DNA from: a virus | Strand: one strand, 5' to 3' | DNA length: 56,124 nucleotides | Virus record (IMG/VR): IMGVR_UViG_3300010399_000044 | Coordinates: 1 to 56,124 of that record | Shown: piece by piece, positions 3,443-49,400 of the stretch | Layout of the letters: every line of letters starts with the position of its first letter | How positions within the stretch are numbered: position 1 is the first letter of the stretch | The notes under the pieces: generated by a model | What the model saw: only the letters and a program-made list of their open reading frames with translations | The model's database searches: none | Told to the model about the DNA's origin: nothing | Position numbers and translations under genes: made by a program

Positions 3443-3511
3443 ACCGTGCGCGCAGTGCGCAGGGAGTCTCATAAGCTCCTTTTTGTCGTGGTGCAAATCC
3501 ACGGTGCGGTA
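3443..3511 (+). tRNA. Degenerate tRNA-Met/Ile2 (CAT)-like element
   Basis: Acceptor ACCGTGC (3443-3449) pairs with GTGCGGT (3504-3510; two GT pairs), discriminator A, then an encoded CCA (3512-3514). The anticodon arm 3463-3479 has loop CTCATAA with anticodon CAT (3470-3472). The T arm 3487-3503 has loop TGCAAAT. Only 13 nt lie between acceptor and anticodon stems, so a normal D arm is missing. It may be a decayed tRNA, a minimal tRNA or a tRNA mimic. Confidence 0.5.
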
Positions 3512-3514
3512 CCA

Positions 3515-3596
3515 GATCGAGAGGGCACTACAGGACCCCTCCGGAGCGCGAACCCAACCTGTAGGACGGGTTCTACAAATCCGGCTTGTCTCGATC
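3515..3596 (+). ncRNA. Structured tRNA-sized element
   Basis: GATCGAGA (3515-3522) pairs perfectly with TCTCGATC (3589-3596), closing an 82-nt element the size of a tRNA. Inside is a hairpin GAACCC/GGGTTC (3550-3555/3568-3573). I could not thread a canonical D, anticodon and T arm through it. It starts directly after the CCA of the previous element and ends just before tRNA-Ile, so it is probably a decayed or unusual tRNA. Confidence 0.35.
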
Positions 3597-3599
3597 CAC

Positions 3600-3674
3600 G
3601 TGTGGTTAGCTCAGTCTGGTCAGAGCGCCTCTCTGATGAAGAGGAAGTCATCGGTTCAAATCCCTTACCACACA
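3600..3674 (+). tRNA. tRNA-Ile (GAT)
   Basis: Acceptor GTGTGGT/ACCACAC (3600-3606/3667-3673). D stem GCTC/GAGC. Anticodon stem CCTCT/AGAGG with loop CTGATGA gives anticodon GAT. T loop TTCAAAT (3655-3661). The T stem has two mismatches (T-T and C-C), so folding is weaker than normal. CCA is not encoded. Confidence 0.85.
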
Positions 3675-3675
3675 C

Positions 3676-3749
3676 GCCCCTCTAGTCCAATTGGCAGAGG
3701 CGCTCGGCTCAGACCCGAGATGATCGCAGTTCGAATCTGCGGAGGGGTA
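3676..3749 (+). tRNA. tRNA-Leu (CAG)
   Basis: Acceptor GCCCCTC/GAGGGGT. Anticodon stem CTCGG/CCGAG (3703-3707/3715-3719) with loop CTCAGAC, anticodon CAG (3710-3712). T stem CGCAG/CTGCG with loop TTCGAAT. The D stem is only 3 bp. The variable arm is short (about 5 nt), whereas bacterial leucine tRNAs normally have a long one, so the amino acid accepted is uncertain. Confidence 0.8.
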
Positions 3750-3769
3750 CAACCAACGATTGGAAGAGG

Positions 3770-3859
3770 ATGAATTTTCAAGACGGTGCCCATATTTGTT
3801 TGTGTGACAGTCCCCGCAACCCCAACTGCCAGAAGTGCGGGATGCCCTGCCACTGTTAG
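3770..3859 (+). CDS. Tiny Cys-rich protein between tRNA genes (1)
   Basis: A 29-residue ORF that fills most of the gap between tRNA-Leu and tRNA-Arg. It has six cysteines: CLC near the middle, CQKC, and a CHC end. GGAAGAGG lies immediately before the ATG, rather close for a ribosome-binding site. The CxxC plus terminal CxC pattern recurs in the other small ORFs of this cluster. A metal-binding fold is plausible. It is too short for family assignment. Confidence 0.5.
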   Translation: MNFQDGAHICLCDSPRNPNCQKCGMPCHC

Positions 3860-3865
3860 TACAAT

Positions 3866-3941
3866 CGCTCATTAGCTCAGTCCGGAGAGAGCACCAGGCT
3901 ACGAACCTGGGTTTGCGGAGGTTCAAATCCTTCATGGGCGG
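3866..3941 (+). tRNA. tRNA-Arg (ACG)
   Basis: Acceptor CGCTCAT/ATGGGCG (3866-3872/3934-3940). D stem GCTC/GAGC. Anticodon stem CCAGG/CCTGG with loop CTACGAA, anticodon ACG (3901-3903). T stem GGAGG/CCTTC with loop TTCAAAT. Discriminator G. A34 would need deamination to inosine to read the CGN codons as usual. Confidence 0.92.
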
Positions 3942-3970
3942 CATGACTTTAGTTGGCAGTAAACTCGGGG

Positions 3971-4027
3971 ATGAGGAACTGTCTATGGTCCGGCGATGCC
4001 GTTCGCGGTGTATCGAGTGGCCTGTAA
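3971..4027 (+). CDS. Possible 18-residue peptide before tRNA-Asn
   Basis: An ATG-to-TAA reading frame of 18 codons, MRNCLWSGDAVRGVSSGL, that ends one base before tRNA-Asn. The sequence CTCGGGG touches the ATG, so initiation is doubtful. It has one cysteine only and does not share the CxC ending of its neighbours. Listed because it fills the gap in the same way as the clearer tiny ORFs. Confidence 0.2.
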   Translation: MRNCLWSGDAVRGVSSGL

Positions 4028-4099
4028 TCCAGCATAACTCAACGGCAGAGTTCCGACCTGTTAAGTCGGCGGTTCTTGGTTCGAATCCAAGTGTTGGAG
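4028..4099 (+). tRNA. tRNA-Asn (GTT)
   Basis: Acceptor TCCAGCA/TGTTGGA (4028-4034/4092-4098). D stem ACTC/GAGT. Anticodon stem CCGAC/GTCGG with loop CTGTTAA, anticodon GTT (4060-4062). T stem CTTGG/CCAAG with loop TTCGAAT. Discriminator G. Confidence 0.93.
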
Positions 4100-4101
4100 C
4101 A

Positions 4102-4174
4102 GGAGGGATGCCGAAGTGGACGAGGCACCGGTTTGTGAAACCGGTATCAGTGGGTTCGAGTCCCACCCCTACCG
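4102..4174 (+). tRNA. tRNA-His (GTG)
   Basis: Anticodon stem CCGGT/ACCGG with loop TTGTGAA, anticodon GTG (4135-4137). T stem GTGGG/CCCAC with loop TTCGAGT. The acceptor GGAGGGA pairs imperfectly with CCCTACC (two mismatches and one GT). The expected extra G-1:C73 pair of histidine tRNAs is not clear. It lies 2 bp after tRNA-Asn. Confidence 0.8.
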
Positions 4175-4193
4175 ACCACGTCAAGGAGGATAG

Positions 4194-4265
4194 ATGAAGT
4201 ACGAAGTATGCATGGGTGGCTGTGGTGGTACGACACAGACCTGTACGTGTGAAGGAAAGCGATAA
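4194..4265 (+). CDS. Tiny Cys-rich protein between tRNA genes (2)
   Basis: A 23-residue ORF with a strong ribosome-binding site (AAGGAGGA, 4183-4190) 3 bp before the ATG. It has four cysteines (VCMGGC and TCTC) and a basic end. The ORF lies between tRNA-His and the next tiny ORF, whose start is 2 bp after this stop, so the two look like a mini-operon. The good Shine-Dalgarno makes this the best supported of the tiny ORFs here. Function unknown; metal binding is plausible. Confidence 0.6.
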   Translation: MKYEVCMGGCGGTTQTCTCEGKR

Positions 4266-4267
4266 GC

Positions 4268-4348
4268 ATGGCAGACCCAGCTTGCCCGAGGTGTCACGGT
4301 ACCGGCTTCTTTTGGATGCTGGGCTCGTGGCGTCCATGTGGGTGTTAA
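4268..4348 (+). CDS. Tiny Cys-rich protein between tRNA genes (3)
   Basis: A 26-residue ORF containing CPRCHGTG, the zinc-binding CxxCxGxG half-motif of DnaJ-type fingers, an aromatic stretch (FFW), and a CGC end. AAGGA lies 11 bp upstream. It directly follows the previous tiny ORF and ends 7 bp before tRNA-Lys. A single CxxCxGxG plus a C-terminal CxC could bind one zinc ion. Function unknown. Confidence 0.55.
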   Translation: MADPACPRCHGTGFFWMLGSWRPCGC

Positions 4349-4355
4349 TCCCAAC

Positions 4356-4428
4356 CGTCCATTAGCTCAAGTGGTAGAGCAGGAGCTTCTTAAGCTCTCG
4401 GTTCCAGGTTCAAGTCCTGGATGGATGA
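4356..4428 (+). tRNA. tRNA-Lys (CTT)
   Basis: Acceptor CGTCCAT/ATGGATG (4356-4362/4421-4427). D stem GCTC/GAGC. Anticodon stem GGAGC/GCTCT with loop TTCTTAA, anticodon CTT. T stem CCAGG/CCTGG with loop TTCAAGT. Discriminator A. CCA is encoded (4429-4431), unlike in most tRNAs of the cluster. Confidence 0.93.
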
Positions 4429-4499
4429 CCACACAGCACGGTGCTGTTACCAGCCGGAACGTTTGATTCCGGGGGTCCGTGTGCGAGGAATACAGGCAA

Positions 4500-4571
4500 T
4501 GCTGATTGGTGTAACTGGCAACACGGGTGGCTCTGAACCACCTGTTCTAGGTTCGAATCCTAGGTCGGCAG
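4500..4571 (+). tRNA. tRNA-Gln (CTG)
   Basis: Acceptor TGCTGAT/GTCGGCA. D stem GTGT/ACAC. Anticodon stem GGTGG/CCACC with loop CTCTGAA, anticodon CTG. T stem CTAGG/CCTAG with loop TTCGAAT. Discriminator G and encoded CCA (4572-4574). The 70 bp before it hold only two short hairpins (4434-4446, 4454-4472) and no gene. Confidence 0.93.
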
Positions 4572-4575
4572 CCAA

Positions 4576-4648
4576 GGGGACATAGTTTAGGTGAGCAAAA
4601 CAGCGGTCTCCAAAACCGCAGTGCGAGGTGCAAGCCCTCGTGGCCCCG
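4576..4648 (+). tRNA. tRNA-Trp (CCA)
   Basis: Acceptor GGGGACA/TGGCCCC (one mismatch). D stem GTTT/AAAC. Anticodon stem GCGGT/ACCGC with loop CTCCAAA, anticodon CCA (4610-4612). T stem CGAGG/CCTCG with the unusual loop TGCAAGC. Discriminator G and encoded CCA (4649-4651). Confidence 0.9.
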
Positions 4649-4652
4649 CCAA

Positions 4653-4726
4653 GCCGTTGTAGCTCAATATGGTAGAGCACCCGCCTTGTAAGCGGGTGGT
4701 TCGGGGTTCAAGTCCTCGTTGCGGCT
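4653..4726 (+). tRNA. tRNA-Thr (TGT)
   Basis: D stem GCTC/GAGC. Anticodon stem CCCGC/GCGGG with loop CTTGTAA, anticodon TGT. T stem CGGGG/CCTCG with loop TTCAAGT. The acceptor GCCGTTG/TTGCGGC has one T-T mismatch and two GT pairs. It starts 1 bp after the CCA of tRNA-Trp. Confidence 0.9.
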
Positions 4727-4728
4727 CT

Positions 4729-4764
4729 TGTTCAGAAAAACCTCGTGTTCAAGTTTTCTGAACA
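4729..4764 (+). other. 11-bp perfect stem-loop after tRNA-Thr
   Basis: TGTTCAGAAAA (4729-4739) pairs perfectly with TTTTCTGAACA (4754-4764) around a 14-nt loop. The stem is AT-rich and no T-run follows. It may mark a processing or termination point inside the tRNA transcript. Confidence 0.5.
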
Positions 4765-4785
4765 GCACCACAAAATGAACACGCT

Positions 4786-4857
4786 GTGGGTGTAGCTCAG
4801 GGGTAGAGTGCCTCATTTGGGATGAGGAAGTCGTGGGTTCGAAACCCGCCTCCCGCA
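4786..4857 (+). tRNA. tRNA-Pro (TGG)
   Basis: D stem GCTC/GAGT. Anticodon stem CCTCA/TGAGG with loop TTTGGGA, anticodon TGG. T stem GTGGG/CCCGC with loop TTCGAAA. The acceptor GTGGGTG/CTCCCGC has one mismatch. Discriminator A. Last tRNA of the cluster. Confidence 0.9.
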
Positions 4858-4880
4858 CGTTTGACAAGGGGGTGATGTAA

Positions 4881-4940
4881 GTGCGGCAGTCTTTTTGCCC
4901 GGTCTGTGGTAAAGACACAGACCTTAACTGTGGTTGTTAG
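4881..4940 (+). CDS. Tiny Cys-rich protein after tRNA-Pro (4)
   Basis: A 19-residue ORF from a GTG, MRQSFCPVCGKDTDLNCGC. It has one classical zinc knuckle (CPVCG) and a C-terminal CGC. The long Shine-Dalgarno AAGGGGGTGAT (4866-4876) precedes the GTG. It lies between tRNA-Pro and the tail-fibre gene, and repeats the CxxC plus terminal CxC design of the other micro-ORFs in the cluster. Function unknown. Confidence 0.55.
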   Translation: MRQSFCPVCGKDTDLNCGC

Positions 4941-12898: not shown

Positions 12899-13076
12899 GA
12901 TCCGAAGTAGCAACGGCGTGGTCGTAGAGGCGTCTGAGAGCAACGCTAAGCGCCTAGTAGAGCAATCCGGGTGGCATTACCTCAAAGAGGTGCCCGAGTC
13001 CGTACAGACGATCTCAGGGCCTGTTACGCCCAAGAAGCGGGGTCGTCCCCCCAAGCAGAAGGAAACCGATGACTAA
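12888..13076 (+). CDS. Small AT-hook-like protein in the head operon
   Basis: 62 residues. The first half is a compact alpha/beta stretch with SNAKRLVEQSGWHYLKEV, resembling the small fold often found just after capsid genes. The tail TPKKRGRPPKQKETDD contains a textbook AT-hook core (KRGRPPK), which would bind the minor groove of AT-rich DNA. It overlaps the genes on both sides (11 bp and 8 bp). It could be a minor head protein that touches packaged DNA. Function not established. Confidence 0.6.
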   Translation: MGVKIRSSNGVVVEASESNAKRLVEQSGWHYLKEVPESVQTISGPVTPKKRGRPPKQKETDD

Positions 13077-13290
13077 GACTGCGCCCATTACGGGCTACCG
13101 CGACCTATCCGATGAGGAGCTTCGCATCGCGAACGAGCTGAAGGAGCTGGCATCCCTTGTGGGTGACCATGTCGAAGCCGTGTTCGCCCGTGAAGACACC
13201 GATAAGCGTTGGGCTGCTATTGCCCGAACCGATCTTCAGACCGGATTCATGGCACTGATCCGTTCGGTGCTGCGTCCGACTACGTTCTAA
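13069..13290 (+). CDS. Acb2/Tad1-like cyclic oligonucleotide sponge candidate
   Basis: 73 residues, mostly helical. The start GYRDLSDEELRIANELKELA and the end RTDLQTGFMALIRSVLRPTTF match what I know of the Acb2 (also called Tad1-like) hairpin family. Its members form hexamers and bind cyclic di- and trinucleotides, blocking CBASS immunity. In the characterised PaMx33 Acb2, Tyr11 and Lys26 bind cGAMP; here Tyr10 and Lys25 have the same spacing. Family members are often encoded beside head genes, as here between the capsid and connector genes. Assignment is from memory of the family; binding is inferred. Confidence 0.72.
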   Translation: MTKTAPITGYRDLSDEELRIANELKELASLVGDHVEAVFAREDTDKRWAAIARTDLQTGFMALIRSVLRPTTF

Positions 13291-23480: not shown

Positions 23481-23571
23481 CGTCTTCCTTGTCCAGTTCC
23501 TGATGCAGCCTCTTCTGGATCTTCTCGACCAAGTCCTCCGGAGGAGGATCGTCGTCTTGTGGTTTGCTCAC
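23473..23571 (-). CDS. Minute charged protein (32 aa)
   Basis: From a GTG with GAGGTTGGGG upstream. MSKPQDDDPPPEDLVEKIQ followed by a basic-acidic helix. The GTG overlaps the upstream TGA (GTGA). The MxxP start again resembles the array. Function unknown. Confidence 0.5.
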   Translation of the reverse strand: MSKPQDDDPPPEDLVEKIQKRLHQELDKEDDD

Positions 23572-23642
23572 TGTCCCCAACCTCTTCCTGTGCAATCGTC
23601 ACCGCATGAACTTGCGTCTCGACCACCGCAGTGGTCACACAC
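23568..23642 (-). CDS. Tiny Cys-rich protein (24 aa)
   Basis: From a GTG: MCDHCGGRDASSCGDDC is a compact CxxC...CxxxC unit, followed by TGRGWGQ. It overlaps the upstream gene by 8 bp and the next gene by 4 bp. Its cysteine pattern echoes the micro-ORFs among the tRNAs and the one at 22886. Zinc binding is plausible; function unknown. Confidence 0.5.
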   Translation of the reverse strand: MCDHCGGRDASSCGDDCTGRGWGQ

Positions 23643-23826
23643 GTACTCGCTCACTCAGGAGTTCCATTTCCAAGGCGGGCCAGCAATACACACTGAACCC
23701 GTCTTCCATCCTGAGGACAATCTGTCCTGTGTCCTCAATAGCGAGGAGAACCCCCGTGTAAGTCACGGGGGTTGGCTCATCGTCACTTAGTCGTACCCAC
23801 ACTTCTTGTCCTAGGTAAGACACCAT
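23635..23826 (-). CDS. Small beta-rich protein
   Basis: 63 residues from the ATG at 23826; the frame extends upstream but overlaps the VOC gene. VWVRLSDDEPTPVTYTGVLLAIEDTGQIVLRMEDGF looks like a five-strand SH3-type or Sm-like barrel. No recognisable family. The ribosome-binding site is weak, so the start is uncertain. Confidence 0.55.
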   Translation of the reverse strand: MVSYLGQEVWVRLSDDEPTPVTYTGVLLAIEDTGQIVLRMEDGFSVYCWPALEMELLSERVRV

Positions 23827-34540: not shown

Positions 34541-34661
34541 CAGACTTCCTCTCGTTCATGACATCAGTCCAGTACCTGACTACTTCACATGGAGCACCCT
34601 GAAGACACGCTTCAGGGTCAGGGCAGTCACCACACAATGGCTGTGGGTCACTCGTCGTCAT
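34533..34661 (-). CDS. Small Cys-rich protein (42 aa)
   Basis: 42 residues from the ATG at 34661. LCGDCPDPEACLQGAPCE has four cysteines in 16 residues, then a helix VVRYWTDVMNER. The ATG lies inside the upstream gene (14-bp overlap). Probably metal-binding or disulfide-linked. Function unknown. Confidence 0.6.
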   Translation of the reverse strand: MTTSDPQPLCGDCPDPEACLQGAPCEVVRYWTDVMNERKSDD

Positions 34662-34737
34662 CGTTGTTATCCTCTTCGAGGTCAGTCCCGAAACACTCAT
34701 CCGGGAACTGGCACTCACCGCCAAGAACACACTCCAT
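34648..34737 (-). CDS. Tiny Cys-rich acidic protein (29 aa)
   Basis: MECVLGGECQFPDECFG has three cysteines, followed by an Asp/Glu/Asn tail. GGAGGTG lies upstream of the ATG. Overlaps the next gene. Its Cys-x-Asp/Glu-Cys layout resembles the neighbour (34533-34661). Function unknown. Confidence 0.55.
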   Translation of the reverse strand: MECVLGGECQFPDECFGTDLEEDNNDDDE

Positions 34738-49083: not shown

Positions 49084-49293
49084 TTACTGAAACACAGGCC
49101 AGGGCTCGGACTGGATCGGGCTGTCTGCGCTTACCATCTTGTGGTATGCAACCCAACCCGCCAAGAACCCCTGAATCACATCCGGAGTCATGTTGTCGAC
49201 CCTGTGAACCCTGGTAATCCCAAACCCGTGGATCGTCAGATCACGACCATTGGCGAGGGTGACGGTCCATCCGTCACTCTGCATCTGGATCAT
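49084..49293 (-). CDS. Hypothetical protein (69 aa)
   Basis: 69 residues from the ATG at 49293 (TGATG overlap with the upstream stop). A beta-hairpin, SDGWTVTLANGRDLTIHG, then helix TPDVIQGFLAGWVAYHKMV. No family recognised. Confidence 0.6.
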   Translation of the reverse strand: MIQMQSDGWTVTLANGRDLTIHGFGITRVHRVDNMTPDVIQGFLAGWVAYHKMVSADSPIQSEPWPVFQ

Positions 49294-49400
49294 CAGTACC
49301 AGCCCTGACCCGAACACGTCTGGCACTCGTCGCCGTCAGGGTTCACGCCAGATCCGCCGCAGTCTCCGCACTTCTTCCTCGGGCTATGCAAGTTAAACAT
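49293..49400 (-). CDS. Small DnaJ-type zinc-finger protein (35 aa)
   Basis: 35 residues. KKCGDCGGSGVN and DECQTCSGQGWY form two CxxCxGxG half-motifs, the zinc site of DnaJ-like fingers, which bind unfolded proteins or RNA. GAGGAAGACA lies before the ATG. It stands alone without a J domain. Function unknown. Confidence 0.65.
   Translation of the reverse strand: MFNLHSPRKKCGDCGGSGVNPDGDECQTCSGQGWY

Follow-up and report, generated by a model that had tools for sequence, protein, structure and literature searches.

The stretch analysed here (the window) is the whole of viral record IMGVR_UViG_3300010399_000044, a contig of 56,124 bases from a phage of soil actinobacteria. Its terminase shares 65–66% identity with its counterparts in Rhodococcus phage RGL3 and Mycobacterium phage Naca, which places the window among the cluster-A-like actinophages, without a close cultured relative. 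The window carries an array of ten transfer RNA (tRNA) genes, flanked by a methyltransferase-like open reading frame (ORF), identified by eye, on one side and by a tail-protein gene on the other. Gaps of the array are occupied by three very short cysteine-rich ORFs (A, B and C), and a fourth (D) lies just behind tRNA-Pro, the end of the array, directly ahead of the tail-protein gene (Table 1). The initial annotation, which had proposed here a set of zinc micro-proteins co-transcribed with the tRNAs, placed all four correctly; the CxxC motifs or variants and the CxC or CTC endings that it described are also present (in B the former is C-x3-C), as are the two strong Shine-Dalgarno (SD) sequences, ahead of B and D. 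Relatives with similar tRNA arrays were taken from a viral collection and are labelled L002, L004, L006 etc.

Table 1. The tRNA array of the window, its cysteine-rich micro-ORFs and their start signals
Feature	Position	Strand	Basis
tRNA array, 10 genes (Ile, Leu, Arg, Asn, His, Lys, Gln, Trp, Thr, Pro)	3600..4858	+	ARAGORN, Rfam RF00005
Micro-ORF A, 29 amino acids, 6 Cys (CLC...CQKC...CHC), tRNA-Leu/tRNA-Arg gap, MNFQDGAHICLCDSPRNPNCQKCGMPCHC	3770..3859	+	sequence, homologues
SD of micro-ORF B, strong, AAGGAGGA	4184..4191	+	sequence
Micro-ORF B, 23 amino acids, 4 Cys (C-x3-C...CTC), behind tRNA-His, MKYEVCMGGCGGTTQTCTCEGKR	4194..4265	+	sequence, synonymous bias
Micro-ORF C, 26 amino acids, CPRCHGTG...CGC, MADPACPRCHGTGFFWMLGSWRPCGC	4268..4348	+	sequence, synonymous changes
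SD of micro-ORF D, strong, AAGGGGGTGAT	4866..4876	+	sequence; kept in L002, L004
Micro-ORF D, 19 amino acids, CPVCG...CGC, GTG start, VRQSFCPVCGKDTDLNCGC	4881..4940	+	sequence, DNA identity in relatives

The start signals of the four micro-ORFs differ. In the relatives, the gap of B contains AAGGAGG (L004 and L013) or GGAGGT (L002 and L006). The signal of A is poor, consisting only of GGAAGAGG, which runs into the ATG. C lacks its own SD and starts 2 nucleotides past the stop of B; its translation is likely coupled to that of B. A, B and D start ~18–26 nucleotides past the discriminator base of the preceding tRNA, i.e. not at the tRNA 3' end. An ATG one base behind tRNA-Arg of the window, opening 84 codons across the tRNAs that follow, was rejected for lack of conservation (it is absent from L002, L004 and L006).

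Homologues of A, B, C and D were found in 3, 3, 4 and 2 relatives, respectively. Compared with L004, L006 and L002, A shows 2–4 synonymous and 0–2 amino-acid changes per pair (Q/R and A/S exchanges only), with no cysteine altered. B differs from its counterpart in L006 by 11 synonymous codons and an ATG/TTG start swap, with no amino-acid change; its synonymous bias over three relatives corresponds to p = 3e-7, and the cysteine codons themselves switch between TGT and TGC. For C, there are 6 synonymous and no nonsynonymous changes with respect to L004, and 5 synonymous changes plus a start swap, again with no amino-acid change, with respect to L013. D is identical at the DNA level in the window, L002 and L004, so that it is conserved but offers no rate information, and no copy was found in L006, in L013 or in further relatives. 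Taken together, the micro-ORFs show the substitution pattern expected of translated genes under purifying selection, with synonymous-biased change in A–C. The cysteines, on whose conservation in related phages the initial annotation had staked its proposal, are retained.

The number of such ORFs in the tRNA gaps is far above that expected by chance. The gaps of the window (784 bases) contain 4 ORFs of 17–45 codons with at least 4 cysteines; of 3000 first-order shuffles, 2767 gave none, 229 gave one, 4 gave two, and none gave more. With a looser ORF definition, applied to 8.3 kilobases of tRNA gap from 13 genomes of the clade (window included), 30 cysteine-rich micro-ORFs were counted in the sense and 1 in the antisense direction, with a shuffle mean of 2.6 and a maximum of 8. 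Not a single one occurs in 10.5 kilobases of tRNA regions from the unrelated actinophages Weasels2, Tonenili, Magritte, prophi86-1 and Grayson. The trait is genuine and, of the tRNA arrays examined here, restricted to those of this clade.

Across the clade the micro-ORFs are exchanged as modules. In L013, A is cleanly absent (tRNA-Leu and tRNA-Arg are 3 nucleotides apart) and B is missing as well, with C standing directly behind tRNA-His under its own strong SD (AAGGAGG) and a second, distant C-like ORF behind tRNA-Gln (CPLCFGTG..CNC); another distant C-like ORF is found in L010 (CPDCHGTG..CHC). L006 retains B, and a different cysteine-containing ORF replaces C. Behind tRNA-His, L008, L010, L015 and L016 carry an ORF of 40–41 amino acids with two CxxCxG-type (DnaJ-like) motifs; a 15-residue type lies behind tRNA-Gln in relatives; in L023, L025, L028 and L135, a CxCxCGC family of 40–47 residues comes after tRNA-Val, the last of the array; and the Trp/Pro gap of L022, L025, L027 and L028 is occupied by ORFs with the pattern CX2CX3HX4-5C. 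In L126 (positions 255–748), the stretch from tRNA-Asn to tRNA-Pro contains five cysteine-rich micro-ORFs in a row, with an ATGA overlap of the first and second. The micro-proteins of the window and its relatives thus range from 15 to 47 amino acids, and only the Val-linked family and the loose Trp/Pro group keep to one tRNA type. Since the families are mostly unlinked to one tRNA type, interchangeable and cleanly lost, accessory cargo fits better than a fixed tRNA-processing factor.

Other accessory genes share this niche, which likewise favours a reading of the micro-ORFs as accessory cargo (inhibitors of the host or of its defences). HNH-like, cysteine-containing ORFs of ~100 amino acids lie in tRNA gaps of L015 (about 4177–4512, Trp/Thr) and L022 (2552–2845, Phe/Gly); the absence of the former from L008 suggests homing into the array. 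The array of L081 includes a gene of the Acb2/Tad1 hairpin family (PF24729; 4025–4240, plus strand, E = 3.9e-18), and the window has a member outside its array (13069–13290, plus strand, E = 3.6e-13). Both are likely cyclic-nucleotide sponges directed against the cyclic-oligonucleotide-based anti-phage signalling system (CBASS).

A second start mode is found in the relatives: with no SD, the ATG lies one base past the discriminator (discriminator-C-ATG, once T-ATG). It is seen in micro-ORFs of L008/L010 (the 15-residue type), L013, L025 (twice), L027, L028 (twice), L030, L126 (the first of the five) and L135. An ATG occupies this position in 12 of 133 distinct tRNA flanks, compared with 1.9% per position (p = 1e-5), and in 3 of 166 flanks of other actinophages. 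The viral collection was also scanned with a pattern of T-arm, C-ATG and CxxC; the counts refer to the matches listed. Of 29 matches behind a verified tRNA, 20 have ATG and CxxC in the same frame (p = 9e-5), including a few from members of the clade; where there is no tRNA the fraction is 28/83, the random third, and these matches were set aside. Some matches come from contigs of 34–46% G+C, distant from the clade of the window.

Streptomyces coelicolor cleaves most CCA-encoding tRNAs 'between the Cs', which is one base past the discriminator (PMC4681348), and a 5'-terminal ATG or GTG suffices for initiation in mycobacteria (PMC4633059). With a start codon at that very position, tRNA 3' cleavage would release a leaderless messenger RNA (mRNA). 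The layout and the non-random frame are properties of the sequences themselves; the tRNA cut, the resulting mRNA and its translation are what we infer from them. On this basis we tentatively suggest, while leaning slightly towards doubt, a form of tRNA punctuation in phages, in which 3' cleavage would both mature the tRNA and free a leaderless ATG- or GTG-started mRNA for a metal-binding micro-protein, coupling its output to tRNA maturation; the SD-led ORFs of the window would be the leadered variant. In mitochondria, mRNAs adjoin tRNA genes, and tRNA excision forms the mRNA ends. The likeness lies in mRNA ends made by tRNA excision; the difference is that phages and micro-proteins are concerned here, and that the process is deduced from sequence only. 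The leaderless small ORFs of mycobacteria (PMC4633059), some of them cysteine-rich, likewise have an ATG or GTG at the mRNA 5' end as their sole start signal, but their 5' end is a transcription start, whereas in the phage relatives it would come from tRNA 3' processing.

Starts abutting a tRNA may be a general feature of actinophages. In Weasels2 (3802), an annotated XRE regulator has its ATG one base past a tRNA discriminator, and in prophi86-1 three annotated GTG-started genes (7302, 8535 and 9910), one of them a release-factor homologue, are placed in the same way; none of these is cysteine-rich. Zinc-ribbon-like ORFs of 31–53 amino acids lie directly behind tRNAs in L142, L159, L168, L207, L233 and L243, contigs of 40–58% G+C outside the clade.

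Each ingredient of the system has precedent elsewhere, and Pfam, PHROGs, the PDB and phage records do not explain the ORFs searched. A tblastn search of 50,697 phage records with A, C and the 40- and 47-residue types (B and D were outside this search) gave nothing convincing, a DNA search with the whole cluster matched tRNAs only, and matches in PHROGs and the PDB were confined to weak ones of a generic CxxCxGxG kind, with antiterminator Q, UvrA and DnaJ among them. CxxCxGxG repeats as in the central zinc domain of DnaJ (PF00684) or in Anti-TRAP (PF15777) are present in the 40-residue ORFs of L008, L010 and L126, and C contains a half-motif. For PF00684 the 40-residue ORF of a relative scores 25.4 bits (E = 1.8e-5), below the gathering threshold of 32.7, and for PF15777 the L010 ORF scores 17.8 bits, below 32; the window ORFs match neither family. 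A resemblance of C (CPRCxGTG) to the zinc link of RNase E (RNase_E_G_Thio, E = 0.18) was set aside as a generic motif. The classic CCHC zinc knuckle has the spacing CX2CX4HX4C; the CX2CX3HX4-5C ORFs of L022, L025, L027 and L028 are similar but deviate from it, and none of the four window ORFs has a histidine ligand in such a pattern.

A close comparison is with the C(P)XCG zinc-finger micro-proteins of haloarchaea (Haloferax volcanii; PMC11241148, PMC6562870), of which a genome encodes many and for which a fold built on a four-cysteine metal site is assumed. The window ORFs (19–29 amino acids) are well within their limit of less than 70 residues, and in motif content D has one CPVCG plus CGC, A one CQKCG, C CPRCH plus CGC, and B none. 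The differences are that the present proteins have 15–47 residues, are phage-borne, lie in tRNA gaps and mostly combine CxxC with CxC. With the small anti-host genes of phages (reviewed in PMC11323111) they share small size and the tendency to be overlooked in phage annotation, but the text of that review names neither zinc, cysteine nor tRNA. Neither zinc micro-proteins in phage tRNA arrays nor tRNA punctuation in phages was found described in the open-licence literature, so the expectation of the initial annotation that such a set would be new agrees with what was found, namely real micro-proteins with conserved cysteines in tRNA gaps across a phage clade.

We consider it probable that the micro-ORFs are genuine microgenes for self-contained proteins with a single metal site, most likely zinc, forming a modular accessory set in the tRNA operon of a cluster-A-like actinophage, with translation tied to tRNA maturation and with products acting as small trans-acting binders. 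The micro-ORFs would be transcribed together with the tRNAs; that no promoter-like site was seen within the array of the window is weak evidence for one transcript. The 4–6 cysteines spaced as CxxC and CxC within 19–29 residues suggest one metal site each, around which every micro-protein would fold. Expression would be linked to tRNA maturation, in the window through an SD placed a short way past a tRNA or through stop-start coupling, with the tRNA transcript, processed or still unprocessed, presumably serving as the message for the micro-ORFs, and in the relatives through the leaderless mRNA described above. The weakest step is the role: the products may bind RNA or host or defence proteins, deployed together with the phage tRNAs, and so keep translation running or block host responses, rather than serve as dedicated tRNA-processing factors. 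Host-factor or anti-defence cargo and RNA binding are the leading options.

Several points weigh against this interpretation. Among the matches in Pfam, PHROGs, the PDB and phage records there is no homologue of known function. The AlphaFold model of the 40-residue relative is of middling confidence (predicted local distance difference test 72.5, predicted template-modelling score 0.35), and its best PDB match has E = 1.8. D has no substitutions among the window, L002 and L004, and terminator or promoter support for a single transcript of the array was not obtained. The 12 cases of ATG one base past the discriminator include near relatives as well as the rejected tRNA-Arg case of the window, leaving ~8 independent ones. 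Among purified Haloferax C(P)XCG micro-proteins, 5 of 14 bound no zinc (PMC11241148).

An alternative, which we regard as somewhat unlikely, is that the micro-proteins act as inhibitors in anti-defence or host takeover, with tRNA-cutting or abortive-infection proteins as conceivable targets, and that the tRNA array is their cargo site. The rapid turnover and clean loss of the modules speak for it, as do the Acb2 family genes in the L081 array and in the window; phage tRNAs have themselves been proposed as anti-tRNase devices that evade anticodon nucleases (PMC10264068). A direct link is absent, however, there is no homology to known inhibitors, and the left arm of the window is by analogy a late region, which is late for an inhibitor.

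That the micro-proteins bind the adjacent tRNAs or assist their maturation, as the initial annotation had also considered, seems unlikely. Their consistent placement in tRNA gaps, the start codons that abut tRNA 3' ends in the relatives, and the resemblance of the CX2CX3HX4-5C ORFs (L022, L025, L027, L028; Trp/Pro gap) to RNA-binding zinc knuckles would agree with such a role, but apart from the two groups named above no family keeps to a given tRNA, the modules vanish while the tRNAs stay (A and B from L013; no D seen in L006), and large tRNA arrays of other phages do without micro-ORFs.

Cis-acting attenuation, in which leader peptides would sense cysteine or the charging of tRNA-Cys and control a downstream gene, in the manner of the leaderless, cysteine-rich upstream ORFs of mycobacteria, is very improbable. 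Cysteine-rich short ORFs do precede genes in actinobacteria (PMC4633059), which are probably the hosts of this clade, and D stands directly ahead of the tail-protein gene. Weighing against this, it is the whole peptide and not just the cysteine codons that is kept (all 23 residues of B, through its 11 synonymous changes and the TGT/TGC swaps), the cysteines have the spacing of metal ligands and form no runs, up to five ORFs stand in tandem (L126), and the window ORFs, SD-led or coupled, are followed by tRNAs (A, B and C) or by the tail gene, not by a cysteine-related gene. Finally, an artefact of composition, by which tRNA gaps would read by chance as cysteine-rich short ORFs that are not translated, is scarcely credible and already largely refuted: the ORFs are indeed very short and have no relatives in annotated collections, but the shuffles, the antisense and unrelated-phage controls and the synonymous bias all contradict it.

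These microgenes reveal a class of genes that annotation likely misses, 15–47 codons long, lying between tRNAs, conserved and yet quickly shuffled across a phage clade. Phage tRNA arrays, the purpose of which is under debate, gain a protein-coding side, possibly anti-defence cargo, and natural candidates for metal-site proteins of very small size become available. Were the tRNA-abutting starts functional, phages would possess a mitochondria-like route to mRNAs via tRNA excision.

Ahead of the called array, two tRNA-like elements are seen on the plus strand, called by neither ARAGORN nor Rfam. The first (3446–3514) has a CAU anticodon-like arm kept in relatives, and the second (3514–3598) has the closing stem GATCGAG/CTCGATC followed by CA, with a fold z-score of −2.55.

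The parallel proposed for the right arm receives little support. A synonymous-bias test was run genome-wide on small genes of up to 60 amino acids; plus-strand matches in the right arm, which probably mirror real genes on the opposite strand, were not counted. Of the similar micro-proteins that the initial annotation had listed there (22886, 23568, 34648 and 39480), the cysteine-rich ORF 23568–23654 is kept across 3 relatives and shows a synonymous excess (p = 0.006), ORF 34648–34737 is conserved in 2 relatives without such an excess and is weakly supported, and for 22886 and 39480 convincing homologues were not found. Among the coding-supported small minus-strand genes of the right arm, one of nine (23568–23654) is cysteine-rich, having at least 4 cysteines, compared with four of four in the tRNA gaps, and the idea that cysteine micro-ORFs are a genome-wide trait of the small genes was therefore rejected. 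A better candidate for a right-arm zinc micro-protein than the four listed would be the 35-residue minus-strand ORF at 49293–49400 (MFNLHSPRKKCGDCGGSGVNPDGDECQTCSGQGWY), which has one homologue and contains two CxxCxGxG motifs, matching the DnaJ domain at E = 2e-4, below the cut-off.

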